Source: Prevotella sp. HUN102
GTDB taxonomy: Bacteria; Bacteroidota; Bacteroidia; Bacteroidales; Bacteroidaceae
Length of the DNA stretch: 64,000 bases
Direction of reading: 5' to 3'
Assembly (NCBI RefSeq): GCF_000688375.1
Contig: NZ_JIAF01000004.1
Location: 248,001 to 312,000 of the forward strand
Shown here: piece by piece, positions 3,821 to 61,430 of the stretch
Numbering within the stretch: position 1 is the stretch's first letter
How the letters are laid out: every line of letters begins with the position of its first letter
Notes under the pieces: generated by a model
Told to the model about the DNA's origin: nothing
The model's database searches: none
The model's input: only the letters and a program-made list of their open reading frames with translations
Made by a program: the position numbers and the translations under genes

Positions 3821-3910
3821 TCTGCCTGTCATTCTTGCGACAATCGGCTGACGTTCTTCGCAAGAACGGCAGACAATCATCGTATGTTTGGATGCCAACT
3901 CTCGCAAAAA
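3821..3910. repeat. GCGAAG-type intergenic hairpin element, copy 1 (degenerate)
   Basis: The arms TCTGCC...CATTCTTGCGA and TTCGCAAGAACGGCAGA face each other over about 50 bases. A further CTCGCAAAAATCG remnant follows. This is the most diverged copy of the family and shares its outer flank with copy 3. Confidence 0.6.
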
Positions 3911-4024
3911 TCGTTTTCAAGCGTCTGAATATGCTTCGGAAATCTCCAGATTGAAGAAACCAAAACAGGCTTTTTCGGGTAATAATCTCTTACATATCTT
4001 AACTCGAGTATTACCTATATGAAT

Positions 4025-4090
4025 AAAAAAACTGCGTTGTCTGCGAAATCCGTGAGCTTGCTTTCTCACGGATATTCGCAGACAACGCAG
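4025..4090 (-). terminator. Strong intrinsic terminator of recQ (clp operon)
   Basis: A long stem pairs CTGCGTTGTCTGCGA and CCGTGAG arms around a short loop. On the minus strand it is followed by a run of seven T. It sits 35 bases after the recQ stop codon. Confidence 0.85.
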
Positions 4091-4124
4091 GATATATCTT
4101 GCATTGCTGACAAGATGTCTTGCC

Positions 4125-6311
4125 TTAATTCGCCATTTCCGACAGGAATTTCACACGCACCAGTCGGATGTCTTCTTCGGAATAATCGCCGTCGAAGAAG
4201 TCTACTGCCGTATCAAGGTCGTCGGTTTCGCTGTCCATAAAGTAATCGTAGATTTCGTTTATCTTGTCTTCATCGTAGATGTCTTCGAGGAAGTAGTCGA
4301 TATTGAGCTTCGTTCCGCTGTTCACGATTTCCTCAATCTTTGAAAGCAGATCGTCAAATTCGAGTCCCTCTGCGATTGCCAAATCGTCCAGTGGCAATTT
4401 GCGGTCGATTCCCTGAATGATTTTTACTTTCTGCATAGACTTCTTGGCAACGGTGCGCACACGGAGTTCTTCGGGACGTTCAATTCCCTTTTCCTCACAA
4501 TACTGCTTTATCAGCTTGCAAAATTCAGCACCGTAGCGTTTTGCCTTGCCGGCACCCACGCCCTGAATGTTCTGCAATTCCTGTTCGTTGATGGGATACA
4601 TCACTGCCATCTGCTCCAGAGAGGGGTCTTGAAAGATTACATAAGGAGGGATTTCCTGCTTGTGAGCCATCTTCTTGCGCAAATCCTTCAACATAGCAAA
4701 GAGTTCCGGATCGAGTACGGACGTGCCGCCAGACATTTCCTCCTCTTCCTCATCGGCCTTGAAGTCGGTATCCATCACTATCATAAACGACGACGGATTC
4801 TTGATGAACCGTTTTCCGGCAGCCGTCAATTTAATCAGTCCGTAGTTCTCTACATCTTTCTTCAGCAGTCCCTCGAGCAGGGCCTGACGGATAACGGGAT
4901 TCCAAATCTTCGGATTCTCGTCTTCGCCCAAGCCAAATTCCTCCAGCAGGTCGTGCTTGTGGTCCTTAATGTCGTCGGTGCCCCGGCCTTTGATGAAGTT
5001 CACAACATACTCCTGACGGAAGTTTTCCTTCAGTGCCTTTACTGCCTTCAGCACGATAAGCAAGGCCTGTTCGCCTTCAATTTTCGTTTTCGGGTGCAGA
5101 CAGTTATCGCACATTTCGCAATTACACTTCTGATATTCCTCGCCGAAATAGTGCAGCAGCAGCTTACGGCGACAGACAGACGATTCGGCATAAGCCTCCG
5201 TTTCCTGCAGAAGCTGACGGCCGATGTCCTGTTCCGCCACCGGTTTGCCCTCCATAAACTTCTCCAGTTTCTTGAGGTCGTTGCGGGAATAGAACACGAT
5301 GCAGACACCTTCTTCGCCGTCTCTTCCTGCGCGTCCGGTTTCCTGATAGTAACCTTCGAGGCTCTTCGGTATGTCGTAGTGGATTACGAATCGCACATCG
5401 GGCTTGTCGATACCCATTCCGAAGGCGATGGTAGCCACAATCACGTCGATTTCTTCCATCAGGAAGTCGTCCTGTGTCTTTGAGCGTGTCTCCGAATCAA
5501 GCCCTGCGTGGTAAGGTGAGGCCTTTATATCATTCGCCATCAAAACAGCGGCAAGTTCTTCAACCTTCTTTCTTGACAGACAATAGATAATGCCGCTCTT
5601 GCCCGCATTCTGCTTGATGAATTTGATAATCTGCCTGTTGGTGTCGTCTTCGCTTTTCTTCGGGCGCACCTCGTAATAGAGGTTGGGGCGGTTGAATGAG
5701 CTTTTGAACTCGCTGCAACCATCTATTCCGAGGCTTTTCACAATATCCGTGCGCACCTTATCGGTGGCAGTTGCCGTCAAGGCAATAATCGGTGCCTTGC
5801 CAATCTGCTCGATAGCCTGACGCATCTTTCGGTATTCAGGACGGAAATCGTGCCCCCATTCCGAAATGCAATGGGCTTCGTCGATGGCGTAGAAACTGAT
5901 GTTTACCGACTGGAAAAACTCTATGCTCTCTTCCTTGTTCAACGACTCGGGTGCTACATACAGCAATTTGGTCTTGCCGGAAAGAATGTCTTTCTTGGTT
6001 TGGTCAATCTCCGACTTCTTCAGCGTAGAGTTAAGGTAATGCGCCACTCCGTCATCTTCGCTCATTCCGTTGATGACATCCACCTGATTCTTCATCAGTG
6101 CAATCAATGGCGACACCACAATGGCCGTTCCCTCCATCAGCAGCGAAGGGAGCTGATAGCAAAGGCTCTTGCCACCACCCGTAGGCATCAGCACAAATGC
6201 GTCGTTGCCTTCCAGCAAGTTCCGGATAATAGCTTCCTGTGCGCCCTTGAATTTGTCAAAGCCGAAATAGTGTTTTAGTTTTTCTGTAAGATTAACCTGC
6301 GTCATTGTCAA
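4125..6311 (-). CDS. recQ: ATP-dependent DNA helicase RecQ
   Basis: A 728-residue superfamily 2 helicase that unwinds DNA 3'-to-5' in recombination and fork repair. Walker A (MPTGGGKSLCYQLP) lies near residue 45, the DEAH box (YAIDEAHCISEWGHDFRPEY) near 140, and helicase motif VI (YYQETGRAGRDG) near 325. The zinc-binding cysteines of the RQC domain (CRRKLLLHYF...CNCEMCDNC) follow. An HRDC domain (IQGVGAGKAKRYG) and an extra acidic C-terminal segment complete it. It starts 96 bases after clpX, and a strong terminator follows it, so it probably closes the clp operon. MTMTQ offers two close start codons. Confidence 0.96.
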   Translation of the reverse strand: MTMTQVNLTEKLKHYFGFDKFKGAQEAIIRNLLEGNDAFVLMPTGGGKSLCYQLPSLLMEGTAIVVSPLIALMKNQVDVINGMSEDDGVAHYLNSTLKKSEIDQTKKDILSGKTKLLYVAPESLNKEESIEFFQSVNISFYAIDEAHCISEWGHDFRPEYRKMRQAIEQIGKAPIIALTATATDKVRTDIVKSLGIDGCSEFKSSFNRPNLYYEVRPKKSEDDTNRQIIKFIKQNAGKSGIIYCLSRKKVEELAAVLMANDIKASPYHAGLDSETRSKTQDDFLMEEIDVIVATIAFGMGIDKPDVRFVIHYDIPKSLEGYYQETGRAGRDGEEGVCIVFYSRNDLKKLEKFMEGKPVAEQDIGRQLLQETEAYAESSVCRRKLLLHYFGEEYQKCNCEMCDNCLHPKTKIEGEQALLIVLKAVKALKENFRQEYVVNFIKGRGTDDIKDHKHDLLEEFGLGEDENPKIWNPVIRQALLEGLLKKDVENYGLIKLTAAGKRFIKNPSSFMIVMDTDFKADEEEEEMSGGTSVLDPELFAMLKDLRKKMAHKQEIPPYVIFQDPSLEQMAVMYPINEQELQNIQGVGAGKAKRYGAEFCKLIKQYCEEKGIERPEELRVRTVAKKSMQKVKIIQGIDRKLPLDDLAIAEGLEFDDLLSKIEEIVNSGTKLNIDYFLEDIYDEDKINEIYDYFMDSETDDLDTAVDFFDGDYSEEDIRLVRVKFLSEMAN

Positions 6312-6358
6312 TAGCTTAGCGTATTCTTTTCATTTTATGGTATTGTCAGGATAGGACG

Positions 6359-6400
6359 GAGCATCTGCGAATCAGTATTCGCTGCCCTGCAAATGCTCCG
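6359..6400. other. Inverted repeat between clpX and recQ
   Basis: GGAGCATCTGC and GCAAATGCTCC pair across about 20 bases, with a smaller inner arm pair. There is no T-run on either strand, so it looks more like an mRNA processing or attenuation structure than a terminator. Confidence 0.45.
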
Positions 6401-6407
6401 ATATGCC

Positions 6408-7640
6408 TTAACCCTGCTCCAGTTGCTGGAGATGGGCTTTGTCGAGTTGCTGACGAGCATAGTCGGCAGTAACTTCAAAGTTCTTCACACTGCGTGATGG
6501 AATCTCAAACATTGTGTCCATCATCACGGCTTCCACGATTGATCGAAGCCCACGGGCACCCAGTTTATACTCCACTCCTTTATCAACGATATAGTCCAAT
6601 GCCTCTTCGGTAAATGTCAGTGCAATGCCGTCCATATCGAAGAGCTTCACATACTGCTTGATGATAGAGTTCTTCGGCTCTACCAATATCCTGCGCAATG
6701 CGTCGCGGTCCAACGGATTCAGATAAGTGAGCACCGGCAGACGACCTATGATTTCGGGAATGAGGCCGAAAGACTTCAGGTCTTGAGGGAGCACATACTT
6801 CATCAGATCCTTTTTGTCGATTTTCGCTACATTCTGAACGGAGTTGTATCCCACCACGTGTGTGTTCAACCGTTGCGCTATCTTGCGCTCGATACCGTCG
6901 AAAGCTCCACCACAGATAAAGAGGATGTTCTTTGTATCTAGGTGGATATAATCCTGATCGGGATGCTTGCGCCCACCTTTTGGCGGTACGTTTACCATCG
7001 TTCCTTCGAGCAATTTCAACAACCCCTGCTGAACGCCCTCGCCACTCACGTCTCGCGTGATGCTCGGATTGTCGCTCTTGCGTGCAATCTTGTCGATTTC
7101 GTCGATGAAAACAATGCCACGCTCGGCAGCGGCAACGTCGTATTCAGCCACTTGCAGCAAGCGGGAGAGAATGCTTTCCACGTCTTCGCCCACATAGCCG
7201 GCTTCGGTAAACACCGTTGCATCCACGATGGTAAACGGAACGTTGAGGAGTTTGGCAATGGTACGCGCCAAAAGCGTCTTACCGGTACCGGTAGAGCCCA
7301 CCATTATGATGTTGCTCTTTTCTATTTCCACGCCGTCATCAGTGGTTTCCTGCTGCAAACGCTTGTAGTGGTTGTACACCGACACGGAGAGATAGCGTTT
7401 TGCTTCGTCCTGTCCGATGATATATTGGTCGAGATATTCCTTGATTTCCTTTGGTTTCGGCACTTTCTTCATATCGAAATCGGCCGTCTCGCTCTTGGTA
7501 CTCTCGAGCACGCCCGATTCCATTACGATATTGTAGGCCTGCTTTGAGCATTCCTCGCAGATATACCCATTAAGACCTGTTATCAGGAGCTTTACGTCCT
7601 TTTCGCTTCTACCACAAAAACTGCATTTATTTTGGGGCAT
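6408..7640 (-). CDS. clpX: ATP-dependent Clp protease ATP-binding subunit ClpX
   Basis: A 410-residue AAA+ unfoldase that feeds substrates to ClpP. The N-terminal C4 zinc finger ([10 protein letters not shown]...CEECS) recruits adaptors and substrates. Walker A is GSTGTGKT, the pore loop GYVGEDVES, Walker [12 protein letters not shown], and the sensor 2 region [10 protein letters not shown]. Length and motif order are typical. It begins three bases after the clpP stop, an arrangement expected for tight co-expression. The trigger factor gene further upstream completes the conserved tig-clpP-clpX-recQ order of Bacteroidetes. Confidence 0.97.
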
Positions 7641-7643
7641 TCC

Positions 7644-8309
7644 TTACTTCTTTTTTGAATATACGTTGTCTATCATACCGTACTCCTTCGCCTCATCGGC
7701 AGTCATCCAGTAGTTACGGTCGCTGTCGTTCCACACCTTCTCGTAGCTTTGATGAGAGTGTTCGCTGATGATGGTGTAAAGTTCTTTCTTGAATTTCTGA
7801 ATTTCCTTTGCTTCAATCTCGATATCGGAAGCCTGACCCTGAACGCCACCGAGTGGCTGATGAATCATCACACGGCTGTGCTTCAATGCCGAACGCTTGC
7901 CTTCCGCACCGGCAACGAGCAGCACCGCACCCATCGAAGCTGCCATACCCGTACAGATAGTAGCAACGTCGGAAGATATAAACTGCATTGTATCATAGAT
8001 TCCGAGGCCTGCCGTCACGCTGCCACCGGGAGAATTGATGTAGATTGATATGTCCTTGCCCGGATCAACGGAGTCCAGATAGAGCAACTGTGCCTGAAGG
8101 GTGTTCGCCGTGTAATCATCAATCTGTGTGCCGAGAAAGATGATACGGTCCATCATCAGGCGCGAGAAAACGTCCATCTGAGTTACGTTTAGCTGGCGTT
8201 CTTCCAAAATGTATGGGTTCAGATATTGATTCTGTGCGCTCACAATGTCGTCGAGCACCATTCCGTTAATACCCAAATGCTTGGTAGCATATTTTCTAAA
8301 ATCGTTCAT
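7644..8309 (-). CDS. clpP: ATP-dependent Clp protease proteolytic subunit ClpP
   Basis: A 221-residue serine protease that forms the tetradecameric chamber of ClpXP. The nucleophile Ser125 lies in GMAASMGAVL, His150 in RVMIHQPLGG, and the acidic member of the triad in the SDRNYWMTADEAKEYGMID segment. An N-terminal extension of about 25 residues is usual in this phylum. A promoter of the Bacteroidetes type (GTTG-N21-TATCTTTG) lies about 120 bases upstream. clpP-clpX can therefore be transcribed separately from tig. Confidence 0.97.
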   Translation of the reverse strand: MNDFRKYATKHLGINGMVLDDIVSAQNQYLNPYILEERQLNVTQMDVFSRLMMDRIIFLGTQIDDYTANTLQAQLLYLDSVDPGKDISIYINSPGGSVTAGLGIYDTMQFISSDVATICTGMAASMGAVLLVAGAEGKRSALKHSRVMIHQPLGGVQGQASDIEIEAKEIQKFKKELYTIISEHSHQSYEKVWNDSDRNYWMTADEAKEYGMIDNVYSKKK

Positions 8310-8427
8310 TTATTTTCCTTTCTTATATAATTGATTAGACAAACAAGAGGCTTTTACCCCTTATATAATTTGCCTTTAATACAAAGATTATGCCATTAGA
8401 GACTATTATCCAAAGTATATGATAACA

Positions 8428-8460
8428 CAAAGATACTCAAAAAAACAGTAATCTTCCAAC
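8428..8460 (-). promoter_or_regulatory. Bacteroidetes-type promoter of clpPX
   Basis: On the minus strand a GTTG -33 element (8457-8460) is followed after 21 bases by TATCTTTG (8428-8435). The transcript would have a leader of about 110 bases before clpP. Confidence 0.6.
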
Positions 8461-8686
8461 AATTAAGCAACTTTTTTTGCAAAACTTTACGATACGGATG
8501 AGTGTTCGGGTGGCAAATGCAGAACATTAATACAAAAGAAGAATGTCAAAACCATCTGGGATTCATCTTATATCATACGCCATAAGCATTATACTATTAA
8601 GGTACAGGCATTGCTTTATCCTGACACACACGCTGCAAGACAAACCGAAAGAGCCTTAACACGCCAAGCCGTGAAGATACTGTAAC

Positions 8687-8723
8687 GAAAAAGCGACAAA
8701 GAAGTTGCCTTCCTTGCCGCTTT
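8687..8723 (-). terminator. Intrinsic terminator of tig
   Basis: On the minus strand AAAGCGGCAA pairs with TTTGTCGCTTT, followed by TTTTTCG. It lies about 30 bases after the trigger factor stop, which separates tig from clpPX transcription. Confidence 0.75.
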
Positions 8724-8751
8724 CCTTATATCATTTCTTAACCTGCGAATA

Positions 8752-10119
8752 TTACTCGCCGCTCAAGAGCTTGTTAAATTCGTCGATTGTAACAGTCTTG
8801 TTGTTCAACTTAACGATGCCCTTCAACGCAGCAGAGAGCTTGCGGTCGAGCGCAGCCTCAACGAATGAGTCGATATTCTCGCGCTTCTTGAGGATTTCCT
8901 CCGCATAGTTGTTCAGGTATTCATCGGGAACATTGTTCATACCGTACTGAGCAAACTGTGCACGAGCCATCAGGATTGCGCTCTCGCGAACGTCTGCATC
9001 CTCAACCTTGATGCCGTTAGCCACTGCCAACTGCTCCTTGATGAGGTGCCAAGTGAGTTCCTTAACGCTCTGCTCATAGTTCTTGTCTACAAATTCCTGC
9101 CCCTTATCCTGATTGTTAGCCAGCATAATGCGCTTCAGGATAGCGTCTGGGAACTGGAGTTCGCCCACCTTTTTCTCAGCGTAAGCACGAACATCCTGAA
9201 TGAATTTATAGTTGGAATCGCCCTCAAGCTGACCCTTCAGACCCTCTGCAATAGTATCACGGAACTGCTTTTCGTCCTTGATGTCTGCTTCGGCACCATA
9301 GATGCTGTCCCAAAGTTCCTTGTTGTTGTCTGCGTTTACGAAACGAGAGATTTCTGTAATCTGATAAGAGAAATCGCCTTCGTGCTGAGCCACTTCCTCG
9401 CGCTTGATTTTCAGCAATGAAGAAACCTCTGCATCGTTTTCAGGATATGCCTTGCGAGGATTGAATGTGATGATGTCGCCGAGCTTAGCACCGTCGAACA
9501 GCTTCTTCTGGTCTTCCACCTTGATGTACTGTGGCATCAAGACTGCTGCCTCTACCGTAATGCCACCTTCAAGTGTATTGCCGTTTGCATCGAGTTCACG
9601 GAGGTCTCCCTTGAGCATATCGCGCTTTTCAGGATCAAACTCTTCAGCCTTGTCGTAGTGTCCTGCACGGCTGGCGAACATATCCACCTGCTGATCGATG
9701 AGCTTATCATCAACTGCGATTTCATAATAGTCAATCTTGTCCTTATTGGTCAATTCAATCTTGAACTCCGGAGCAACGGCAATGTCGAACTTGAACACGT
9801 AAGGAGCAGGCTTTTCCAAATCAACAGCTTCCTGTGATTCGCTGCCCATTGGCTGACCCAGCATCTGAATCTTGTTGTCAGCAATATATTTCTGGAGATT
9901 CTCGCCCAAAATCTTATTGATAGCATCCATCTTTACCTGTGGACCTACCTGACGCTTGATCATACCCATTGGCACCTGACCTGGACGGAAGCCGGGAATG
10001 TTAGCACGCTTACGATAGTCCTTGAGAGCCTTCTCAACCTCTTCCTTAAAATCAGCTTCTTCTACCGTGATGGTCATAAGACCGTTGATTTTGTCGGGAT
10101 TTTCAAATGAAATGTTCAT
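8752..10119 (-). CDS. tig: Trigger factor, ribosome-associated chaperone
   Basis: A 455-residue protein that binds the ribosome exit tunnel and shields nascent chains. The N-terminal ribosome-binding domain is clear, with FRPGQVPMGMIKRQVG in the expected position near residue 43. The central PPIase-like domain is degenerate, as usual in Bacteroidetes, and the C-terminal part is helical. It has its own TACCTTTG promoter box about 90 bases upstream and its own terminator. The position before clpPX is the conserved order and fits a proteostasis role. Confidence 0.94.
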   Translation of the reverse strand: MNISFENPDKINGLMTITVEEADFKEEVEKALKDYRKRANIPGFRPGQVPMGMIKRQVGPQVKMDAINKILGENLQKYIADNKIQMLGQPMGSESQEAVDLEKPAPYVFKFDIAVAPEFKIELTNKDKIDYYEIAVDDKLIDQQVDMFASRAGHYDKAEEFDPEKRDMLKGDLRELDANGNTLEGGITVEAAVLMPQYIKVEDQKKLFDGAKLGDIITFNPRKAYPENDAEVSSLLKIKREEVAQHEGDFSYQITEISRFVNADNNKELWDSIYGAEADIKDEKQFRDTIAEGLKGQLEGDSNYKFIQDVRAYAEKKVGELQFPDAILKRIMLANNQDKGQEFVDKNYEQSVKELTWHLIKEQLAVANGIKVEDADVRESAILMARAQFAQYGMNNVPDEYLNNYAEEILKKRENIDSFVEAALDRKLSAALKGIVKLNNKTVTIDEFNKLLSGE

Positions 10120-10386: not shown

Positions 10387-10410
10387 CGATTACTTTTTAT
10401 ATCTAAAACA

Positions 10411-12078: not shown

Positions 12079-12506
12079 TATGCTTGATTTGGATTAACAT
12101 TATTAGATTAATACGCCGTAAAATTAACCCATTTATTCTCAAAATACAAATTTTTTGAAAGAAAAAAATCAAAAATTGCACACTTTTATAACAATGTGAA
12201 TATGCTTTGACACATAGAGTTTACAATTTGAGTTGCTAAAAGATGCAATGAAAGAAAAATCCGTTGATACTTTCCTGTAGTGAAAGAAAACCTGAGTTCG
12301 AGATAAACCAACAAGTATCTTTCTCAAAAATCTCACGGAATCACAGATATTTTTAATCCGAATTCAGATAGAATCAGGATAATTGTGTTGTGTGTTTCTC
12401 TGTTGGAGGAGATAAATTTATGAAATTCAGAAAGCCTATATAACTTAACAAACAATCTCACTCATAAGTAACTGATAATCAAATAATAACACATTCATTA
12501 CCAAAC
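12079..12506. other. Gene-free region upstream of fhs
   Basis: An AT-rich stretch in which I see no gene. A seven-codon open frame at about 12420 has a good GGAGGAG ribosome site but no recognisable product. The block AAGTAACTGATAATCA near 12470 recurs in the flanks of other hairpin-element copies (31.9 and 61.3 kb). Confidence 0.45.
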
Positions 12507-12582
12507 GTGCGAAGATTGCGTTCCATTCTTCGCAAAAACGCATTTTATTCTTGCGAAGAATGGAACGCAATCTTCGGTTAAT
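12507..12582. repeat. GCGAAG-type intergenic hairpin element, copy 2 (perfect palindrome)
   Basis: A perfect 26-bp inverted repeat (12510-12535 and 12551-12576) is separated by a 15-base loop. Each arm contains both GCGAAGAATG and CAATCTTCG modules. There is no T-run, so it is not a normal terminator. It lies in the gap between the end of lptB and the fhs leader and is the best-preserved copy of the family. Confidence 0.9.
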
Positions 12583-12648
12583 TGGAAACTGTGTTTCCAT
12601 CAGCCTGAAACGGGTATTGCTCTGCTGAATGGAAACGACGCTAAACGC

Positions 12649-15519: not shown

Positions 15520-16150
15520 GTATATCTATACTTCGCTTTGGCATAGCTGAACGATTCCACTAACCAAGATACTTACAAGCAAATCTTATCTTCCCATCAT
15601 ATAATTGCAGCCTTAACTGCGTGCCATTTCTTCAATATAGAAAGTGGTTTTCTCGTGGTCTTGCTCTCTTAGCAACTTGTTTGCCCCTGTTCCTTTTGTA
15701 AATTCCCTTTACCAAAAATCGGCTTCTGAAAATTTTCAATATAGGAATTAGAAGGGAGTATTTTGAGACTTATGACCTTGATTTTTAATGATTGCTATTC
15801 GTTTCTCCGAAGACCATTTTGCAATCGTACGAAGAACGCAATGCAACTTTGCGAAGAATGCACGACAATCTTCGCAAGAATGGAACGAAAACTTACGAGA
15901 TTTAACGCTTTTAAAATGTTCATTTCATCATATTTATTGCTCATTATGAGAACTTTTCATCCTACAAGGCATTGGCTTTATTGGGAGTGAGAGAATAATA
16001 CACTATTAATCAGTAAGTTACAAAAACGCTCATAATTCGCGTATTTGAAAAAAATAAATTCTTGCTCCGAAATATTGAAGCTATGAAAGGGCTTTTGTAA
16101 AAATCATTCATAGTTTTCCCAGTTCAGATTATTCTCAAATCCATAACTCT
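15520..16150. other. Gene-free region with hairpin element copy 3
   Basis: About 630 bases without a credible gene. Open frames present here run through the repeat. Blocks at 15934-15957 and 16026-16051 also occur, inverted and in the same relative order, beside copy 1 at 3.7 kb. Confidence 0.55.
15821..15899. repeat. GCGAAG-type intergenic hairpin element, copy 3
   Basis: Three modules are visible: GCAATCGTACGAAGAACGC, TTTGCGAAGAATGCACG, and ACAATCTTCGCAAGAATGG. They can pair as GCGAAGAATG with CAATCTTCGC. Confidence 0.75.
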
Positions 16151-17966: not shown

Positions 17967-18056
17967 TGAAGTTAAAGAAGTTAAGGAAGTTAAGGGAGTT
18001 AAAGGAAGAGAGGGGATCAAAGAAGTTAAGGAAGTTAAGAGGAGACAGAGGACAAT
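17967..18056 (+). repeat. GGAGTTAAG-type polypurine tandem repeat (left side of the four-helix-bundle gene)
   Basis: GAAGTTAAAGAAGTTAAGG and similar units are repeated seven or so times with drift. The tract ends in GAGGACAATA. It faces the inverted tract at 18535-18585 with the AGGACAAT ends inward, towards the enclosed gene. Confidence 0.8.
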
Positions 18057-21386: not shown

Positions 21387-21899
21387 TTAAAAGTAAAAAA
21401 GTTATATCTCCCTAATTGTTAAGATAACATAAAGGTTCTTTTGACGAACCGTATTCCTCTGCTTCCTCTGCTTTTTCACTCCTGACAGATATATAAATTA
21501 AGGTGTAAAAAAACAAACAAAACAACAGACCGACTGCAAACAGACGCTTTTCGTATGACATCAATTTCTATTACCCATCTGCTTATAATTATACAGTAAA
21601 ATGAACAAGAAATAATTGAAACGCAAACGTGCGAAGATTGTCCGCTAATCTTCGCACGTTTGAGCTGCGTTTTTGCGAAGAATGGAGCGCATTCTTCGCA
21701 AAAACAGCAGTTAAAACATAAATAACTATATATCAATCACTTATAAGTTGATATTAATCTCGTATAATTGTATAATTATACCAAGGTATTATGAATGTTA
21801 TATCAAGATTTTCAAGCAGCTTTCAGCATCGTTCCGGCTCTTGCTCATTTCCGACAACGGAATTGCAATAGGCGAAAAAGCACCACAAAAGAGATTCGG
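21387..21899. other. Gene-free region with hairpin element copy 4
   Basis: About 510 bases. It holds the double hairpin at 21625-21705. Frames that span it are repeat-derived and I do not regard them as genes. No other structure recognised. Confidence 0.5.
21625..21705. repeat. GCGAAG-type intergenic hairpin element, copy 4 (two tandem hairpins)
   Basis: Two perfect 15-bp stems stand side by side. AAACGTGCGAAGATT (21625-21639) pairs with 21647-21661 over a 7-base loop. GTTTTTGCGAAGAAT (21669-21683) pairs with 21691-21705 over a 7-base loop. Confidence 0.9.
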
Positions 21900-27945: not shown

Positions 27946-28031
27946 GGGGGAGTTAAGGAAGAGAATGGGGAGTTAAAGGAGTTAAAGGAGTTAAAGGAGT
28001 TAAAGGAGTTAAAGGGAGTTAAAGGACAATA
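27946..28031 (+). repeat. GGAGTTAAAG tandem repeat upstream of pepO
   Basis: GGAGTTAAA is repeated with a 9-base period: GGAGTTAAGG, then six or so nearly identical units, then AGGACAATAG. It is the cleanest tract of this class in the window and looks like a live microsatellite. Confidence 0.85.
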
Positions 28032-28131: not shown

Positions 28132-28198
28132 CTCTTTTTCTATCGTTTCAGAACTCGGAAATGAAGGATTCGCAGAAAGGAATAATAGGCGGGAGGAA

Positions 28199-28285
28199 AA
28201 AGGTACGTACTTTCCGATGAAAAAGTACGTACTTTCTCAGTGAAAAGTACGTACTTTTTGAGCAAAAGGTACGTACTTTTTTGAG
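28199..28285. repeat. Four-copy 22-bp array of AAAGTACGTACTTT palindromes
   Basis: GTACGTAC occurs at 28203, 28225, 28247 and 28269, exactly 22 bases apart. Each is embedded in an AAAGTACGTACTTT-like palindrome, with 8-10 varying bases between. The 22-base phase is two helical turns, so all palindromes lie on one face of the DNA. It lies about 200 bases past the end of the GntR gene and 370 bases before pepO. An operator array is the simplest reading. Confidence 0.85.
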
Positions 28286-31729: not shown

Positions 31730-32056
31730 ACTTTTTTTCAAAAAAAGACAATTTTCTCCGTTTTTCCCCTCGTTTTATTCATTTCCACCTTAATATATAG
31801 GCAGGCGGGGGATAAACGGACAGATGCACGCAACAAAAGTATGGTATTACAAGTAACCGAAGAATGGAAAACAATCTTCGCAAAAACGCAACGCATTCTT
31901 CGCAAGATTGCGCTGCATTCTTCGCAAGAATGGAAAGCGAATTTCTGTCTACTGATTTTCAGCTACTTACAGATTGCTAAACAAGCAACATAGAAAGGCA
32001 ATACTTCAATGGCTGAAAAGGTTGCCATCCACTCTGTAAACGACACAGAAGGACAT
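31730..32056. other. Gene-free region with hairpin element copy 5
   Basis: About 330 bases between the ABC operon promoter and the dedA terminator. Apart from the element at 31857-31942 I see nothing. Confidence 0.45.
31857..31942. repeat. GCGAAG-type intergenic hairpin element, copy 5
   Basis: Modules CCGAAGAATGG, CAATCTTCGCAAAAACGC, GCATTCTTCGCAAGATTGCG and CATTCTTCGCAAGAATGG alternate. The left flank AAGTAACCGAAGA is shared with copy 7. The right flank, inverted, matches the AAGTAACTGATAATCA block beside copy 2. Confidence 0.8.
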
Positions 32057-36919: not shown

Positions 36920-37487
36920 CTGTTTTTTAGTGGAATATGGATAGTAAAAATAGTGAAAGTTTACGAAATGAACACTATGCAAAACTTTATCCGTCGCCCC
37001 GCAGCCTCACTCTTCTGAAATACGAAAGAGCTATCCGTTGCTTGAGAATGGGCTGTCTGCGCACGCACATACCGAATAAAATGAAAAAGACGCCGGGTAA
37101 TTTCGAGACGGCTCGGCATCTTTTCGGCAAAAAATCGGACATATTGGTCTTATAAGTATAAAATAATACCTGTACATTAATCTACCTATCTTCGTTTTTA
37201 TAAATTGCTGGAAATCAAAGGATAATACAGCCATTCCCAATTTTACGAAGAATGAATTGCATTCTTCGCACAAACGCGTTGCAATCTTGCGAAGAATGAA
37301 TTGCGTTTATGCGAAGATTGCAACGCAATTCTGCGATGGAGATATTTTGACGATATTTCGTTTTGAAAACATTTTACACTTTTCAGCCTTTCGCCTGACT
37401 TGCTTTGGCGATACTTAGATGTAGGTATTTTGCTGTTTCGGACATTCTATTTTCTTTGTTTTGAAGTATGGTTAGAAGTTTATTCTA
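36920..37487. other. Gene-free region with a hairpin and hairpin element copy 6
   Basis: About 570 bases. A GC-rich inverted repeat at about 37085-37120 (AAAGACGCCG...CGGCATCTTTT) has T-runs on both strands and could end a small RNA. The repeat element follows at 37243-37340. A 72-codon frame at 36937 has no ribosome site or family resemblance and I do not call it. Confidence 0.45.
37243..37340. repeat. GCGAAG-type intergenic hairpin element, copy 6
   Basis: Modules TACGAAGAATGAATTGC, GCATTCTTCGCACAAACGCG, GCAATCTTGCGAAGAATGAA and GCGAAGATTGCAACGC alternate. Several nested pairings are possible. Confidence 0.85.
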
Positions 37488-42617: not shown

Positions 42618-42933
42618 CTTGTTTAGGGATATGGTTTGTAATGCAAAAATTGCCTATATGCAAAATCAGTAAATGAATGTAAGCAATCGTATTCATAAGG
42701 AAATTGCTTTATTTCCTTGCCACTTCAACTCTACCTTTCTGTTGTTTTCTTTGCAATTTACAAGACAATATACTTGCAAATTTGTTAGTTTCTATCCCTG
42801 TTTTGATGCGTTCAAATTTAATACAAATTAAAGCGATTTGTAAGTAACCGAAGATTGCATTCCATTCTTCGCAAGATTTGCATGCAATGGTGTGTATTTC
42901 GCTTTCTTGAATAAATATGCAGGGAGATAGAAT
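42618..42933. other. Gene-free region with hairpin element copy 7
   Basis: About 315 AT-rich bases between two terminators of convergent genes. The element at 42845-42920 is the only structure seen. Confidence 0.5.
42845..42920. repeat. GCGAAG-type intergenic hairpin element, copy 7
   Basis: A short core (CCGAAGATTGCATTCC ATTCTTCGCAAGATT) is followed by GCAATGGTG and CTTTCTTGAATAA. This tail recurs at 50706-50740 beside copy 8. Confidence 0.75.
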
Positions 42934-50283: not shown

Positions 50284-50795
50284 TTATATGCAGAAATATT
50301 TTGGGATAAGTGAAAAGTTTAATCAAAAATGCGGTTATTTTAAATAAATAGATTGTTTTTGCGTTATATAGTTACGAATAATACTATTTTGAGGATAATG
50401 GATTTTAGATGATTTCAAATTGAAAATGTTTGTATTCTATAAAATAATATTTTTGCTTTTATTAAATGATGTCTCTGTCTTTTTTGTTGTGTGGTATTCT
50501 ATTATTACTCTTGTCTGTAATAGGGCAGGTCGCTTTTCCATCCGTATAAACATACGTATATGCAATTTATTTTCTTATTTTGTAAATAATTGATATTCAG
50601 TATTTTATAAATTAACTTTGTTTGTGCGAAGATTACACGGCAATCTTCGCACAAATGGATTGCATTTATCGCACAAACGGAAGCCGTTTTTCGCACGATT
50701 GAAAAGCAATGGTGCATATACCGTTTTCTTGAATAAGAATACATAGGATTATGGGTAAGCCGAAAAGGGAACAAGAGGACAGAGGACAAAGATAT
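50284..50795. other. AT-rich gene-free region with hairpin element copy 8
   Basis: About 510 bases, very AT-rich up to 50510. The extended repeat occupies 50541-50745 and a short polypurine run (AGGGAACAAGAGGACAGAGG) follows at 50763-50790. No gene recognised; the 94-codon frame here is repeat-derived. Confidence 0.5.
50541..50745. repeat. GCGAAG-type intergenic hairpin element, copy 8 (extended)
   Basis: The core hairpin pairs TTTGTGCGAAGATT (50621-50634) with 50642-50655 over a 7-base loop. The 80 bases before it match copy 9 without gaps in inverted orientation. The tail from 50706 matches copy 7. It is therefore the longest copy in the window. Confidence 0.9.
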
Positions 50796-55478: not shown

Positions 55479-55507
55479 AGGTTGATCGGAGTCTTTATTT
55501 TAAGCGT

Positions 55508-55539: not shown

Positions 55540-56120
55540 AAATAGCCTGTGTTCGTCGCAATTATTCCTTGTTTCGTCCGTTGTCTGCCTATTCCCCGTG
55601 AAGGTTTTGCCCTTGTTCTGTACTCGTATCCACAGAGTTTGAGTGTTGAGAAAAATATTTACATGTGGCTTGTTTCCGAATAAAAACTCTATGTTTGGTA
55701 AACGGTTGATTTACAAGTGTTTGCAATATATCGTCATTTGCATTGCAATCTTCGCACAAACGCAGCACGTTTATAAAATACTGAATTTCAATTATTTACA
55801 AAACAAACAAAGAACTCGCATATACGCATATTTATACGAACCTATACCTGAAGTTTTTCGTCTGTCAATCTACAATCTGTTTCCGTATCAACCCAATTTC
55901 AAACTCCTTCTCACTCCACCACTCTTCACTTTTCGTATTATATTACTAAAAGTGGTATAAAATTCTGCATCCACAAAATTACATTCAAAAAAATAAGTTG
56001 CAATTCTCCTTTTTTTGTTTTCTTTGCAAGACAGAATTGATGAAGATTGTCTTTAAGCAGACAACTCCTTTCGCAAACAACAGAACATAACCAATGTTTC
56101 AAAAAAATATGATAAAATAT
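55540..56120. other. Gene-free region with hairpin element copy 9
   Basis: About 580 bases of AT-rich sequence. It carries the half-element at 55737-55840. A frame of 105 codons passes through it and is not a credible gene. Confidence 0.5.
55737..55840 (-). repeat. GCGAAG-type intergenic hairpin element, copy 9 (half-hairpin)
   Basis: Only one arm (CATTGCAATCTTCGCACAAACGC) is present, so the hairpin is lost. The flank 55741-55840 aligns without gaps to the inverse of 50541-50640, with about 81 of 100 positions identical by my count. Confidence 0.85.
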
Positions 56121-56151
56121 TTTGATATGTGCCCAATATATCTTAATTTTG
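56121..56151 (+). promoter_or_regulatory. Bacteroidetes-type promoter of the DUF6140-like gene
   Basis: TTTG (56121-56124), 19 bases, then TAATTTTG (56144-56151). The leader would be about 280 bases, unusually long, and contains a CAGG/CCTG-bounded inverted repeat near 56270-56310. Confidence 0.65.
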
Positions 56152-56436
56152 CAAATATGAGCAGATGGATATTCTTCCGTCTGTTCCGTATGAGCAAAAC
56201 TTGCAAACGAGGTTATCGACCTGGTTAAATCTGGAAAATTTCAACAGGGGTGTCCATAATCGAGTTTAGGCAGGTTCTGTGCTCCCATTCTTATATGAGA
56301 GTATGGCCTGTTTTTACTTCATTCAGACCCTATGATTATTTCCAAAACCTTACCGGATGAATAGAGCTAAAGTGGGCTATGTTCCCTTTTCCTTTTATTC
56401 GTACCTCAGAATCTTATAAACTTTAAATCCATTATT

Positions 56437-56655
56437 ATGGCATTATTGAAAATCACCGTGAAAATGACAAAGCACTCTGCCGGAATGGTAATAGAACCCG
56501 GTATGAGTGTTCAGCTTGCAACAATGCTGCCCAATCCTATTACCAATCAGCAGGAAAGCGAAAAGGTAAACACCCTTTTCAAAAACAACTATGGTGTTGA
56601 TTTGAAGAAGATGGGAGCATTGAATCCTGCATATTTGAAAGTGGAAAAAATATAA
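56437..56655 (+). CDS. Small protein, probably DUF6140 family
   Basis: 72 residues: MALLKITVKMTKHSAGMVIE, then PGMSVQLATMLPNPIT, ending GVDLKKMGALNPAYLKVEKI. The pattern matches, from memory, the DUF6140 family of short Bacteroidetes proteins of unknown function. There is no signal peptide. It is the first gene of an AT-rich islet. A second reading frame starts 11 bases after its stop and is cut by the insertion element. Confidence 0.75.
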   Translation: MALLKITVKMTKHSAGMVIEPGMSVQLATMLPNPITNQQESEKVNTLFKNNYGVDLKKMGALNPAYLKVEKI

Positions 56656-56666
56656 AATAAAATACT

Positions 56667-56716
56667 ATGTCTACGTCTATCAGTTTATACGAGTTGCTTA
56701 ATAATGTTATTCACTA
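56667..56716 (+). pseudogene. 5' fragment of the gene split by the IS element
   Basis: Sixteen codons (MSTSISLYELLNNVIH) begin 11 bases after the DUF6140-like gene and run into a stop at the left edge of the insertion element. The open frame on the other side starts DKLKDDWDNYTTYTEY. I infer that both belong to one interrupted gene; the exact joining bases are not recoverable because no clear target duplication is visible. Confidence 0.55.
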
Positions 56717-56718
56717 GT

Positions 56719-58019
56719 GTCCACTAAAAATGGACGAGTTTAAAAATTAAATAAATTAGGTTTACCTGAACCACTTCGGTCTTTGTCATTTTTGAATATA
56801 GTTTTGTCGAAGAGATCTCTGAGATTTGTTGTGTCTGTAAGTGACATGCTGAGGATTTGCAGCACCTCATAAGTGCTTCTATCCAATCGCATATCATATT
56901 GCACAATGGCAACGAGGCAGTAGGCACAGATGGCGGAGTAAATCTGTATTCTGACAGCATTCTCAGTTGTTCCCCAAAATTTCTTGATTTTGAGGTGCTG
57001 CTTGAGCCACTTGAAGAAAAGCTCTATCTGCCAACGATTCTTGTAGAGGTCCGGAAACCTGCAGTGCGGTCAGTTCCATTGCGTTAGTCAGGAACATGAA
57101 CTCACGGCCTTGCTCCTCATCGAAGAATCGTACAAGCCTAAGATGTTCTGGATAGCCTTTCTGACTGCCATAGATGGTCAGCTCTATCTCAGCATCTGTC
57201 ATTATTCCCCGGGCAGCCTGCGTCTCCACTTGATGCACTTGTACTGCAAATTGGTCTTGGCCCTGACAACGAAGAACGACTCTGCACGATGTATGCGATA
57301 GAGCTCATTGAAGTTGTTGTAGCCAGGGTCAAAGATGTGGTAAGCACCAGTCTCAATGGGGATTTCCCCCATCGCCTTGGAGCCATGCACTGATGCTGTG
57401 GTGATATGAAAGAAGGCGGGAATCTGAGTCTCCAGGTCATATAGGGTATGTATCTTGATACCGCCCTTATGCTTGCGGAACTTGGCACACCAAAACACAT
57501 TCAGGCATAGCGAGATGGTCGTGGAATCGAAAGCATAGACATTACCGTCAAGTTTGAAGATATTCGCAGCCCGTTTGCGCCTGGCCTTACTCACAAGGTA
57601 GTAGGCATACTGCTCGAAGATGCGACAGGCACGATTTGTATTGGCTTTAGCCAGATTACTTCTGGTCACGTGCTTGCCAAGTCCGAGATGATAGCACTTC
57701 TGGTAATGTGCCTCTATGGCGACAATCAAGTCTCGCATGCTCTCACGATTGCTCAACTGGCCAAACATGAGTGTAAGGAGCTGGTTCCAACATGTGAAGT
57801 GCTTCACATAGCGGTTACCGCCATACTTATCAACGATGTGACGAAACTTGTCTGAATCCATAAAAGCGACCAATTGGGAGAAAACGTATTGGGGCTTATT
57901 CATATGCAGTCATCTGTTTGGACTGCAAAGATACAAAATCAAATCGTCGCACCTTGAAAATCTCTGTAACTAACTATATTTCAAATATTTCAAAGAACGC
58001 TTAGCGATTTTTAGTGGAC
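56719..58019. mobile_element. IS4-type insertion sequence, about 1.3 kb
   Basis: Terminal inverted repeats GTCCACTAAAAAT (56719-56731) and ATTTTTAGTGGAC (58007-58019) bound a single transposase gene on the minus strand. No obvious direct target repeat flanks the ends, which suggests a deletion or rearrangement after insertion. The element lies within the DUF6140-linked gene. Confidence 0.88.
56740..57903 (-). pseudogene. IS4-family transposase with two compensating frameshifts
   Basis: The intact protein would have about 387 residues. The N-terminal DUF4372-like domain (MNKPQYVFSQLVAFMDSDKF) and first catalytic Asp (VYAFDSTTISL) are read in frame to 57202, where a stop follows a one-base loss in the CCCC/GGG run at 57207-57213. 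The middle (MTDAEIELTIYGSQKGYPEH) is in another frame until an extra G at 57051-57052. After that the original frame resumes with the IS4 YREK signature (YKNRWQIELFFKWLK) and ends at 56740. As written the transposase is inactive. Confidence 0.88.
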
Positions 58020-58027
58020 GGCAATGA

Positions 58028-59182
58028 GATAAATTAAAAGATGATTGGGATAATTATACTACATACACAGAATATAAAGATAGAAAGTATATCCTGATAG
58101 TTCCTGACAGGAAGATAGGTGGCTGCTTTGATACTGATATCAAAGTGTTTAGAAATTCCAATATACCTTCCTGCATCAAGTTCTATGATGGCTTGCCTTT
58201 AACAAACGAATTGTATATGGGACACCCTTTCAATCCGGAGGTTTACGTTCCATTTGAACAGGCGGAAGAATTTCTTTTCCTTGATAAAGTGCAGGAGTTC
58301 TGTTATATACTGCAATGTTTAGGTGCAGAAGAAATAACCATAACCTCTGTGAAGGGTAAAAAGGTGGAAGAAATGAATTCTTCTCAGGACTCTCTTAATA
58401 TAGAGGGGAAAGCTTGGTTTGTTAAGGGAGAATTTGAGAAAAAAGACTCTTCTGTAAAAAACTTTAATTCAACCTCTGCCGATCAGTACGAAGTAAGGTA
58501 TATGTATGACCCTATGGATTTGCCTTTTGTCCCCAATGATATCGTATGGTATCAGAATCAACCCAAATGGCAACGTTTAGCACAGAGCCGTATACAGGGA
58601 AACACTTTAGAGTATAGTGAAAGTTTATCTACTAAAGACAGCCGTTTTACGTCAAGTTCTGAGAAAAATGAAATCAGAGGAAAACTCAAAGTATTGAAGA
58701 TGAAAATATCGGGTTCTAAAGAATCTGATATTGAGAAGCAATTAAAAGAAGAAACAGAAACAGAATGGCGAATTAGCGTAAAATTCCGATCAAAGAAATA
58801 TTTGGTTTCAGATTCAAATATTTCTTTACCCACGACAGCACTGAAAGCCGTTTCTTCATTGACAGACAATGAGCAGAAATTATTGAATGAGATAAAATCT
58901 TGCTTGGAGGATGATGGCATTATTGATTCTAATGAAGAAAAGTATTTAGAGAAGTTCCGTGAACGTTTAGGTATTTCTTCTGAGCGTGCTAAAGAATTGA
59001 GAAACTCAGTGGAAAAGTCTGTTTTGTCGTCCGACGAAGAGGAGTATGCGCTTGCTTATATAGAGTTATTGGAAAATGGGCGTTTGCCTCAATCATCTGA
59101 AAAAATAGTTATGCGTTATAGGAAATTGTATAATATTAGCGACGAGCGAGCAAAGTTTATAGAAAGATTTGCTCTGGAATAA
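58028..59182 (+). CDS. Uncharacterised protein with TerB-like C-terminal helical repeats, 5' end removed by the IS
   Basis: The frame is open from 58028, just after the insertion element; the first usable start inside it is a GTG at 58145 (345 residues from there). The N-terminal part is of unknown fold. The C-terminal 100 residues hold two related helical units (LNEIKSCLEDDGIIDSNEEK... and VLSSDEEEYALAYIELLENG...) with the ERLGISSERAKELR pattern often seen as a terminal domain in Bacteroidetes proteins. The sequence is more AT-rich than neighbouring core genes, suggesting transfer. With the DUF6140-like gene it forms an accessory pair of unknown role. Confidence 0.7.
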   Translation, partial: DKLKDDWDNYTTYTEYKDRKYILIVPDRKIGGCFDTDIKVFRNSNIPSCIKFYDGLPLTNELYMGHPFNPEVYVPFEQAEEFLFLDKVQEFCYILQCLGAEEITITSVKGKKVEEMNSSQDSLNIEGKAWFVKGEFEKKDSSVKNFNSTSADQYEVRYMYDPMDLPFVPNDIVWYQNQPKWQRLAQSRIQGNTLEYSESLSTKDSRFTSSSEKNEIRGKLKVLKMKISGSKESDIEKQLKEETETEWRISVKFRSKKYLVSDSNISLPTTALKAVSSLTDNEQKLLNEIKSCLEDDGIIDSNEEKYLEKFRERLGISSERAKELRNSVEKSVLSSDEEEYALAYIELLENGRLPQSSEKIVMRYRKLYNISDERAKFIERFALE

Positions 59183-59200
59183 GTCCCGAAATTTATAATT

Positions 59201-59275
59201 GTGTAAGCTCCATTTTTGTTCTTTATTTTTAGCAAATACGGAGATAATAAAAATATGGAGCTTGCACATTTTTTA
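59201..59275 (+). terminator. Intrinsic terminator of the split gene
   Basis: GTGTAAGCTCCAT (59201-59213) pairs with ATGGAGCTTGCAC (59255-59267), followed by TTTTTTATAT. The loop is long. Confidence 0.75.
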
Positions 59276-59306
59276 TATAGACCTTTACCTGATGTCTTAT
59301 ACCTTT

Positions 59307-59331
59307 GAGTTCGGGATAACCCCGAACTCAT
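59307..59331. terminator. Second stem-loop before the HU-like gene
   Basis: TGAGTTCGGG pairs with CCCGAACTCA over a 4-5 base loop, with an AT-rich flank. It may reinforce the preceding terminator. Confidence 0.5.
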
Positions 59332-59446
59332 ATATTTATATATTATTTTCTCCAAACCTTTAAAAAGGAAAAGAATATGTATGATTTAAATTAAATCGCA
59401 AAAGTAAATAATCTATATAATGCTTTTTATATTTCATATAAATACG

Positions 59447-59454
59447 TATATTTG
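59447..59454 (+). promoter_or_regulatory. Putative -7 box (TATATTTG) of the HU-like gene
   Basis: TATATTTG lies 27 bases before the chosen start codon. The region upstream is very AT-rich and has no clear TTTG at the right distance. Confidence 0.55.
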
Positions 59455-59481
59455 CAGAAGAAATATAAAAACTTCAATTAT

Positions 59482-59904
59482 ATGGCAATCAGTATCAGAC
59501 TGCAACAGAGTAAATTCAAGGAAGAGAATCGTGGTGGGAAGTGGCACGCACGAGTAGTGAGCAGTGGGGTTACGACAACGGAAGACCTCGCGGCATCCAT
59601 TCAGGAGAATACCACCTTCACACGTGGCGAGGTTACGGGCATCATTATGGCACTTGTAGACGAAATCAGTTACAGCCTGAGCCTCGGCAACACGGTGGTG
59701 CTCGATGGGTTGGGGCGTTTCCACCTCACGGTTGAGAGCGACCCGGTGGAAAATCGCAAGGATTTCGACATCAAGAAAAACGTGAAAGGCGTGAAGTGCA
59801 AGTTTCTGCCAGCCAGCCGTCGCGACCCTCACACCCGTAAAAGCACACAGGACTTTGCTTCGGGTGTACAGATTGTATGGGCTGATCCGGAAGACGAGGA
59901 ATAA
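59482..59904 (+). CDS. HU-related DNA-binding protein
   Basis: 140 residues starting MAISIRLQQSKFKEENRGGK; an in-frame ATG ten codons earlier lies in the promoter and is rejected. The HU/IHF fold is seen in LAASIQENTTFTRGEVTGII and GNTVVLDGLGRFHLTV. The C-terminus is longer than in classical HU and ends acidic (WADPEDEE), as in the HU-like variants abundant in Bacteroidetes. It probably shapes the nucleoid. It is convergent with asd, with polypurine repeats between. Confidence 0.9.
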   Translation: MAISIRLQQSKFKEENRGGKWHARVVSSGVTTTEDLAASIQENTTFTRGEVTGIIMALVDEISYSLSLGNTVVLDGLGRFHLTVESDPVENRKDFDIKKNVKGVKCKFLPASRRDPHTRKSTQDFASGVQIVWADPEDEE

Positions 59905-60135
59905 TCTGTCAAGGAGAAAAGGGACGAGAAGACAGGAGAACAAGGAATTTGAATGATAAGGGAAAGAGAGGATAAAAAGACGAGAAAGCAAGGAGATTTC
60001 TTAACTTGCTCGCCATTCGGCAATTTTTCAGAACAAAGAAATTTATAGATTAACTATTCTCTTTGTTCACTCCTTCACCATTAAAACTTCTTTCCTTGTT
60101 CATTCATCTACTTGTAAACTCGTCCTCTCGCTCAC
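59905..60135. repeat. Facing ACAAG/GACGAG-type repeats between HU-like gene and asd
   Basis: The left arm (59905-59997) contains AAGGAGAAAAGGGACGAG, AGACAGGAGAACAAGG and AAAGACGAGAAAGCAAGGAG. The right arm (60060-60135) is pyrimidine-rich: CCTTGTTCATTCATCTACTT then GTAAACTCGTCCTCTCGC. Together they can fold into one large stem between two convergent genes and may serve as a shared terminator. Confidence 0.7.
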
Positions 60136-60139
60136 TTCC

Positions 60140-61153
60140 TTACTTTACATTCCCCACCTTAATGAGATATTCCGCAATCTGAACAGCGTTCAGCGCAGCA
60201 CCCTTGCGAATCTGGTCGCCGGTGAGCCAAAGTGTGTTGCCGTTATCGTCGGCCAAGTCTTTTCTTACACGGCCAACATAAATGTTGTCGTGTCCGGAAC
60301 TCTCGAGCGGCATAGGATAAACATAGTTATGCGGATCGTCTACAAGCGTTACGCCCGGAGCTGCTTCGAGTGCCTTGCGGATATCTCCTACAGCCAAAGG
60401 CCTCTCTGTTTCAAACCACACGGATTCGGAATGACTGCGGAGCGATGAAACACGCACACAGGTGGCACTTGTACGCACGTCGGAGTGCATAATCTTCTGC
60501 GTTTCGTAGAACATCTTCATTTCCTCTTTCGTATAGTCGGTTTCGGTCATCTTGTCGATTTGAGGAATCACGTTGTAAGCCAACTGATGAGGGAACTTTT
60601 CGATAGTCTTTACCTCCCCCTCTTCTATCAACTCCTTATACTGCTGCTGCAACTCCTCCATCGCCACAGCACCTGCACCGGACGCACTCTGATAGCTGCT
60701 CACGCGAATTTTACGGATATGGCTCAGCTTCTCGATAGGATTGAGCACCACCACCATCATAATAGTCGTGCAGTTTGGATTTGCAATGATGCCGCGCGGA
60801 CGGTTCAACGCATCCTCCGCATTGATTTCCGGCACCACCAACGGCACATCCTTGTCCATTCGGAACTGGCTGGAATTGTCGATCATCACACAGCCGTACT
60901 TAGTTATGGTTTCAGCAAACTCTGCCGAAGTGCCGCCTCCCGCGCTTGTAAATGCTATATCAATGTCTTTGAAATCATCGTTATGCTGAAGTAGTTTAAC
61001 TTCTAATTCCTTACCCCTGAATACATATTTACTGCCAGCCGAACGGCTTGAACCGAACAGAACAAGTTCGTCCATCGGGAAATTTCTCTCTTCCAGAATG
61101 CGGAGGAACTCCTGTCCTACTGCTCCGCTGGCTCCAACTATTGCTACTTTCAT
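60140..61153 (-). CDS. asd: Aspartate-semialdehyde dehydrogenase
   Basis: 337 residues. It reduces aspartyl phosphate with NADPH, leading to diaminopimelate, lysine, threonine and methionine. The N-terminal NADP-binding motif is [15 protein letters not shown], and the catalytic Cys128 lies in [10 protein letters not shown]. The substrate-binding region ([19 protein letters not shown]) is complete. Length is typical. A TAATTTTG box lies about 35 bases upstream. Confidence 0.97.
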
Positions 61154-61187
61154 AAGTTGTCTTTGCTTTATTAAAAGATTTATGCTG

Positions 61188-61195
61188 CAAAATTA
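61188..61195 (-). promoter_or_regulatory. Putative -7 box (TAATTTTG) of asd
   Basis: The minus strand reads TAATTTTG 35 bases before the start. No good -33 element is visible. Confidence 0.45.
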
Positions 61196-61355
61196 CAAAA
61201 AAAAACGATTGGATGAATTAATTTTCCAAAATACTGATAATGGGAATTTGCACCTGCCTCTGTTTTTCATTGGGCTGCAACCCAAAGACGTATAACACGC
61301 AAGCTTCACTTGCGATGTAAACACTTGATAATCAATGGACAATTTATCTCTTTCC

Positions 61356-61430
61356 AATCGTGCGAAGAATGCGGTGCAATCTTCGCAAAAACGCATTGCA
61401 ATCGTGCGAAGAATGGAATCCAATCTTCGG
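61356..61430. repeat. GCGAAG-type intergenic hairpin element, copy 10
   Basis: AATCGTGCGAAGAATGCGG, GCAATCTTCGCAAAAACGC, GCAATCGTGCGAAGAATGG and CCAATCTTCGG alternate and can pair in nested fashion. The flank ACTTGATAATCAATGG before it resembles the block beside copy 2. Confidence 0.85.

Follow-up and report, generated by a model that had tools for sequence, protein, structure and literature searches.

Dispersed repeats in bacterial genomes are usually identified from their sequence. In the Bacteroidales, BrickBuilt, a miniature inverted-repeat transposable element (MITE) of Porphyromonas gingivalis, is an intergenic element in which tandem 23-nt units lie between a leader and a tail; strain ATCC 33277 has 19 such elements, one of which reaches 18 full repeats, and their ends match P. 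gingivalis insertion sequences (PMC4596501). Here we analyze a stretch of 64,000 nucleotides (hereafter the window; positions 248001-312000 of contig C4) from Prevotella sp. HUN102, whose genome comprises 3,318,148 bases in four contigs, and in which an earlier sequence-only reading had named ten loci as a family of intergenic hairpins. All ten are copies of a single intergenic element, directional and about 130 bp long, composed of four near-palindromic units at a pitch of 22 bp and of a tail at a fixed distance. The chief point beyond that reading is that relatives carry the 22-bp architecture too, with unrelated unit sequence.

The arm motif on which the family had been defined, GCGAAGAWTG with at most one mismatch, matches 44 times in the window, against a mean of 12.1 in shuffled sequence (standard deviation 3.5, largest count 19; none of 100 shuffles reaching 44). 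Its enrichment extends beyond the window, since CAWTCTTCGCANNAWNG, also with at most one mismatch, has 739 matches in the whole genome and its reversed control two. A profile trained on the elements of our genome sample, window copies among them, recovered from the window precisely the ten places that had been named, each of them between genes as called, here and throughout, by our own script. All ten loci are real, but the anatomy assigned to the two arms has to be revised: these are parts of a 17-bp near-palindromic unit, CAWTCTT-CGC-AAGAWTG, the centre of which can be CGC or GCG, in either orientation. Units are separated by spacers of 5 bp and a four-unit array spans 83 bp. The 774,839 bases sampled for seed spacing gave 253 exact seeds in 109 clusters, none of which held more than four seeds, and all 144 distances between neighbouring seeds of a cluster were of either 22 bp (127) or 44 bp (17). 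Units are near-invariant while the spacers of the same copies are almost random, in a set that was selected on exact unit seeds and is hence biased.

Oriented by its tail, the element reads, in approximate order, CGATTTG, four units, 19 bp and then TTGATTWTCANNNACTTACAAA. The census sample, which covers 1,174,839 bases or 35% of the genome in non-random stretches, some of them picked for listed matches, contains 58 tail matches with at most three mismatches. An upstream array accompanies 46 of these (45 elements, one matched twice), with an offset from array start to tail of 102 bp in 41 cases, 101 bp in four and 113 bp for the double match, and 12 have no array. At a limit of two mismatches, units lie in the 130 bp upstream of 28 of 32 tails, whereas the reversed control yields 0; the tail is therefore part of the element, even if its motif is loose. 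The same sample holds 121 elements, a number that scales to about 340 per genome with the reserve that its stretches are non-random. Among the 121, 116 lie between two genes, four at the ends of stretches and only one within a called gene. On contig C1, most 20-kb stretches between positions 280001 and 460000 lack any copy, and this region is possibly acquired DNA.

The sequence of the element is essentially private to HUN102. The hairpin centre GCGAAGAWTG-N5-CAWTCTTCGC occurs 276 times in this genome and is absent from 32 of 32 genomes of the same genus, and of 399 genomes of the family only two contain the hairpin pattern, HUN102 itself and a member of another genus with a single-site match. 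In a collection of named species, which may omit the records nearest to HUN102, one other contig matches, that of the metagenome-assembled genome (MAG) "MAG: Prevotella sp. isolate SUG981", with three units at 22-bp pitch. The pattern was not found in viral contigs, nor did the copy at 31835-31985 match anything in plasmid and phage collections.

Arrays of 22-bp pitch and of quite different sequence are nonetheless present in three of four relatives searched over 100 kb each (genomes G473, G056 and G521). The units of G473 take the form GCAAAA-N7-TTTTGC, and the arrays of G521 and G056 are of other sequence (three types). Among tandem arrays counted at lags from 14 to 40, lag 22 accounts for 38 in HUN102, 79 in 900 kb of G473, eight in G056, one in G521 and none in a fourth relative, G573, with the next-best lag reaching 11 in HUN102 (lag 15), six in G473 and two in G056; in 50 kb of Escherichia coli no lag-22 array was detected. 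Raw counting of 8-mer lags, which is less clean, ranks lag 22 first in G056 and G473, third in two HUN102 sets, and fifth in the window and in G521, and does not register it in G573. The arrays are likewise palindromic, with scores of at least 0.85 for 79% of those in HUN102, 87% in G473 and 100% in G056, against 11%, 14% and 38% of column-permuted arrays. A looser cut yields 47 arrays in nine sequence clusters for HUN102 and 95 in ten for G473. The window holds, at 28193-28279, a second and unrelated four-unit 22-bp array of AAAGTACGTACTTT palindromes, with a similar array at C4:1054795 and a related-looking type in G473. Longer 22-bp arrays lie at C4:833339 (nine units visible) and C4:613132, both without the family tail, and the former indicates that unit number is not limited to four for all array types. 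In G056 and G521 (stretches L123-L132), one array type is embedded in longer repeats of about 400-590 bp with 73-82% identity, and some elements may hence exceed array plus tail.

Among 16 relatives, which were chosen in part because their counts were high, 15 have the tail as YTGATNWTCAGNNRNTTACAAA with at most one mismatch (reversed control, 0), as do 141 of the 249 genomes of the family that were scanned, nine of which match the reversed control. Nine of 30 tail loci drawn from the 16 relatives, in eight genomes, have a lag-22 array (score of at least 25) no more than 170 bp upstream. Of 30 family-wide tail loci, five have such an array upstream, all in another genus of the family (g3), with a unit that resembles CTCAGTCGTATACTGAG. 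Of random places in these loci, 68 of 2400 do. Starting from the arrays, a tail with at most three mismatches lies within 110 bp of 5 of 13 in genomes chosen for tail-array matches (random windows, 22 of 1000); as two of the five are loci already counted above, 3 of 11 is the fairer figure. It is tempting to postulate, if only tentatively, a family-wide class of intergenic elements that preserve the 22-bp pitch, the palindromy and the conserved tail but in which each lineage has exchanged the unit sequence for another. Should this replacement be true, it would imply either that the specificity of the partner protein changes rapidly or that some process writes palindromic arrays of 22-bp pitch, one type of which spreads in each lineage. 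As the conserved thing would then be spacing and tail, searches for repeats based on sequence would see only unrelated private families.

The explanation that we favor, to which we assign a probability of about 0.45, is that the four units and their fixed-distance tail spread together as a non-autonomous mobile element, and that the array is a predicted docking platform for a dimeric DNA-binding protein. Under this proposal, copies would have been inserted as units in each lineage long ago, through transposition or a similar process, by an enzyme that presumably reads the conserved ends. Each palindrome would bind one protein dimer and, given that 22 bp correspond to about two turns of B-DNA, four dimers would sit on one face of the helix; palindromes at a two-turn pitch with variable spacers do have the look of sites for a row of dimers. 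Pairing was examined in 70 of the 121 copies, those nearest to full length by our cut-off (51 being left out). Positions that face each other across spacers pair below composition expectation in them (37-47, z -5.8; 35-49, z -5.3; 15-25, z -3.3; 34-50, z -3.0; 59-69, z -2.7), negative couplings at 30-32, 52-54 and 74-76 merely reflecting the block flip of the CGC centre, and spacers 1 and 3 do not covary (z -1.9 to +0.2). Such anti-complementary halves fit both duplex recognition and the loss of unstable repeats: heterogeneity between neighbouring units may persist because identical or perfectly inverted neighbours are lost by slippage or hairpin processing. In almost every one of 55 G473 copies, the 7-bp centre of unit 2 differs from that of unit 3, and the couplings that stand out most there (z about +6.7 and -6.9) fall outside the hairpin register and reflect which of the two centres occupies each of these units. 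Units would since have been kept up, or would survive in old insertions. Phased docking of a protein on the arrays, if real, would mean that a DNA-binding system with hundreds of sites in each genome has gone unrecognised in a major group of oral and gut bacteria; if the elements are mobile, they would carry an unknown mobilising enzyme; and unrelated palindromes in relatives, with shared spacing and in part of the arrays the shared tail, would indicate a fast-changing partner protein.

HUN102 and G473 were compared for the presence and absence of elements over 212 reciprocal best hits with a median identity of 74.5%, G473 being scored for its main family only. Of 110 conserved neighbour pairs, 103 carry an element in neither genome, four in HUN102 only, two in G473 only and one in both; empty sites, which the sequence-only reading had proposed to look for in relatives, thus exist in both directions. 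Gaps are longer by 361 to 958 bp where only HUN102 has the element and by 393 and 533 bp where only G473 does, and the 103 element-free pairs have a median difference of 1 bp (extremes, -92 and +487). Two of the gaps occupied only in HUN102 measure 18 bp in G473. One aligned junction, between genes that we take to be murD and ftsW, is an 86-bp gap in G473 and contains an element in HUN102, and the element at 61.3 kb of the window is missing from the aligned gap in both G473 and another relative, G413.

Several results weigh against this explanation. The differences of 361-958 bp exceed the length of the element, so that the insertions are not clean, and element-free pairs also reach a difference of 487 bp. 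No target-site duplication was found: over more than 1000 offset pairs per length, no coherent offset emerged in the 70 elements, and z reached about 4 at most. The best pair among these copies is just 85% identical over 134 bp (median 63%), and there has therefore been no recent movement, contrary to the suggestion that the family was still spreading or recently active. Within the census sample no transposase is tied to element ends. Array and tail can occur apart, since 21 of 30 tail-like matches in the genus set and 25 of 30 in the family set lack a strong array, and no tail accompanies 20 of the 24 minor 22-bp arrays examined in HUN102 and G473 (relaxed pattern, at most three mismatches; random windows, 64 of 1500). 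The 100 kb of G573 hold no lag-22 array at all. Finally, one outer pair, 48-80, covaries positively (z +3.9), and RNA folding of four window arrays gave z scores of -10.3, -9.6, -3.0 and -2.2, two of them strong.

Some of these results bear equally on the possibility that the element is a selfish MITE, whose array would be the subterminal binding site of its own transposase and would have no host function. The anatomy is element-like, with short imperfect inverted ends, the left TTTGYAAGT (TTTGCAAGT), which is variable, and the right ACTTACAAA (reverse complement, TTTGTAAGT), and both the intergenic tolerance pattern and the presence or absence of copies at conserved gene pairs speak for it. 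Against it stand the lack of target-site duplications and of near-identical recent copies, the lack of an autonomous partner in 1.17 Mb, and the near-invariance of units beside almost random spacers (in the biased set noted above), and we regard it as unlikely. Four of the 12 tail matches that lack an array fall in the 5' region of transposase-like gene copies (C1:248379, 301288, 357023 and 571504); these four regions are near-identical, and their protein, starting MITEDKV, is presumably IS982-like. Tail-like stretches beside transposase-like genes, in HUN102 and in G299, G408, G257 and G135, lie upstream or downstream of the gene and have no array, and were taken as chance similarity or a shared signal. 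The PDDEXK_2 family (PF12784) had no match in HUN102 and none in the control genomes either, which makes that search uninformative. In the window itself, a transposase fragment (DUF4372 and DDE_Tnp_1 in Pfam) occupies 57202-57903, with no family units adjoining. An apparent one-sidedness of strand along contig C1 proved to be a listing artefact once both strands were counted.

The palindromes could instead act in RNA, as hairpins at the 3' ends of transcripts with a role as terminator, stabiliser or processing site. The two strong predicted folds are in line with this, as is the closeness of elements to stop codons: of 65 elements in tandem gaps, 49 are closer to the stop codon, 18 being within 100 bp of a stop and two within 100 bp of a start. 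In G473, moreover, the main array type (90 elements per 900 kb, none in called genes) is enriched in convergent gaps (35/90 versus 60/258 in the background) and depleted in divergent ones (10/90 versus 62/258). HUN102 displays no such bias, its 116 elements being distributed over 65 tandem, 28 divergent and 23 convergent gaps, compared with 233, 105 and 79 among 417 background gaps of at least 150 bp, and orientation in tandem gaps is balanced (35 against the genes, 30 with them). RNA hairpin covariation was searched for in the 70 copies and the opposite was seen, the facing halves being anti-complementary; strong hairpins occur in some copies but are not the conserved feature of the family that they had been supposed to be. 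Between 12401 and 32400, where 26 terminator-like sites were identified, two overlap family copies, at 21.6 kb and, weakly (5-bp stem), at 15.8 kb, and the family lacks the GC stem followed by a T-run of an intrinsic terminator, in broad agreement with the earlier remark that its hairpins have no T-runs. The window has no Rfam match that reaches gathering score. A role in RNA appears improbable.

Another possibility is that old arrays have not transposed but stayed put, their sequence changing along with a rapidly evolving nucleoid or regulatory protein. This would account for the same architecture with different units in relatives and for the strong uniformity of units within each genome, and the 21.6-kb gap of the window is occupied in both HUN102 and G473, each time by the array type of the species. 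Among 27 conserved gaps of at least 100 bp, however, one is shared, two are occupied in HUN102 only, two in G473 only and 22 are empty, a degree of sharing that is not above chance (Fisher p = 0.31, at low power), and gaps are longer where the element is present, which renders change in place quite improbable. Membership of the repetitive extragenic palindromic (REP) or REPIN families, moved by a RAYT transposase, would suit hundreds of short palindromic intergenic copies, but is not supported and must be deemed very improbable, because the Y1 transposase PF01797 has no match in HUN102 at E 0.001, where the same search is positive in 5 of 14 control genomes, and neither a GTAG nor a CGTC tag appears in the unit or tail consensus (35 and 63 elements, read by eye). 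Of the label REP- or MITE-like given by the sequence-only reading there remain the dispersed, intergenic and lineage-specific nature of the family and its occupied and empty sites; the RAYT partner does not. A mere mutational habit of making 22-bp tandem duplications, one of which was copied around as a minisatellite, agrees with the many unrelated 22-bp arrays of HUN102 and G473, several of them single-copy and some exceeding four units, but leaves the palindromy, the four-unit maximum of the main family and the fixed tail distance unexplained, and is scarcely credible.

The ten window copies are listed in the following table. They include intact and decayed forms, as the sequence-only reading had noted, and even the decayed locus at 3.8 kb keeps the 22-bp pitch. 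The copies at 50578-50711 and 55746-55809 share a near-identical linker and tail in opposite orientation and flank a block of three genes (S41 peptidase, DUF3316 and topoisomerase IV/gyrase A-like). Nine-base intergenic tandem arrays, an independent type of repeat, occur at 17968-18039 and 27969-28026 (GAAGTTAAG, GGAGTTAAA).

Table. Copies of the 22-bp array element in the window (window coordinates; scores are those of the profile match).
Feature	Position	Strand	Basis
Decayed copy with four degenerate units spaced at 22 bp (3830, 3852, 3874, 3896)	3830..3913	+	Profile match 3823-3897, 27.6 bits; units read from sequence
Full element, four units 12502-12584, tail toward lower coordinates	12461..12594	-	132.4 bits; alignment
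Four-unit array, partly decayed, no clear tail	15822..15904	+	60.6 bits; units read from sequence
Full element, units 21624-21706, tail weak; uncertain orientation (7 v 7)	21614..21747	+	95.9 bits; alignment
Full element, units 31850-31932, tail end near 31973	31840..31973	+	122.4 bits; alignment
Full element, units 37238-37320, tail toward lower coordinates	37197..37330	-	113.7 bits; alignment
Partial copy, two clear units, third decayed	42841..42901	+	40.3 bits
Four-unit element, unit starts 50619, 50641, 50663, 50685; tail toward lower coordinates	50578..50711	-	91.7 bits; alignment
Remnant with a single clear unit (55746-55762), a linker and a tail	55746..55809	+	33.9 bits; tail match
Full element, units 61355-61437, upstream of aspartate-semialdehyde-dehydrogenase-like gene (Pfam)	61314..61447	-	131.4 bits; alignment

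No description of such arrays was found in the titles and abstract beginnings of the open-access PMC literature, where literal sequence strings matched unrelated papers only. Iteron arrays of plasmid origins also present a few binding sites at a pitch of about 22 bp on one helix face; the HUN102 element differs from them by being chromosomal, dispersed, palindromic and present in hundreds of copies. With the REP, REPIN and BIME repeats and their RAYT it shares the many short palindromic extragenic copies and the lineage-specific families, and it departs from them in having no GTAG or CGTC tag, no RAYT, a fixed 22-bp pitch and a tail common to genomes with unrelated units (PMC3733652). Like the prokaryotic MITEs, it is short, intergenic, non-coding and probably non-autonomous, but it has no target-site duplication, weak inverted ends and no known parent transposon, and what is kept is its architecture and not its sequence (PMC10969869). 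BrickBuilt belongs to the same bacterial order and is likewise intergenic with an internal tandem array and a tail; its unit, AGAYCATARTATCCTCTCRTRTG, is of other sequence, of 23 nt and not evidently palindromic, in contrast to the palindromic 22 bp of the HUN102 element, which has no more than four units in its main family, hundreds of copies and no matching insertion sequence found (PMC4596501). Of the systems compared, BrickBuilt is the nearest named element, by build and not by sequence.

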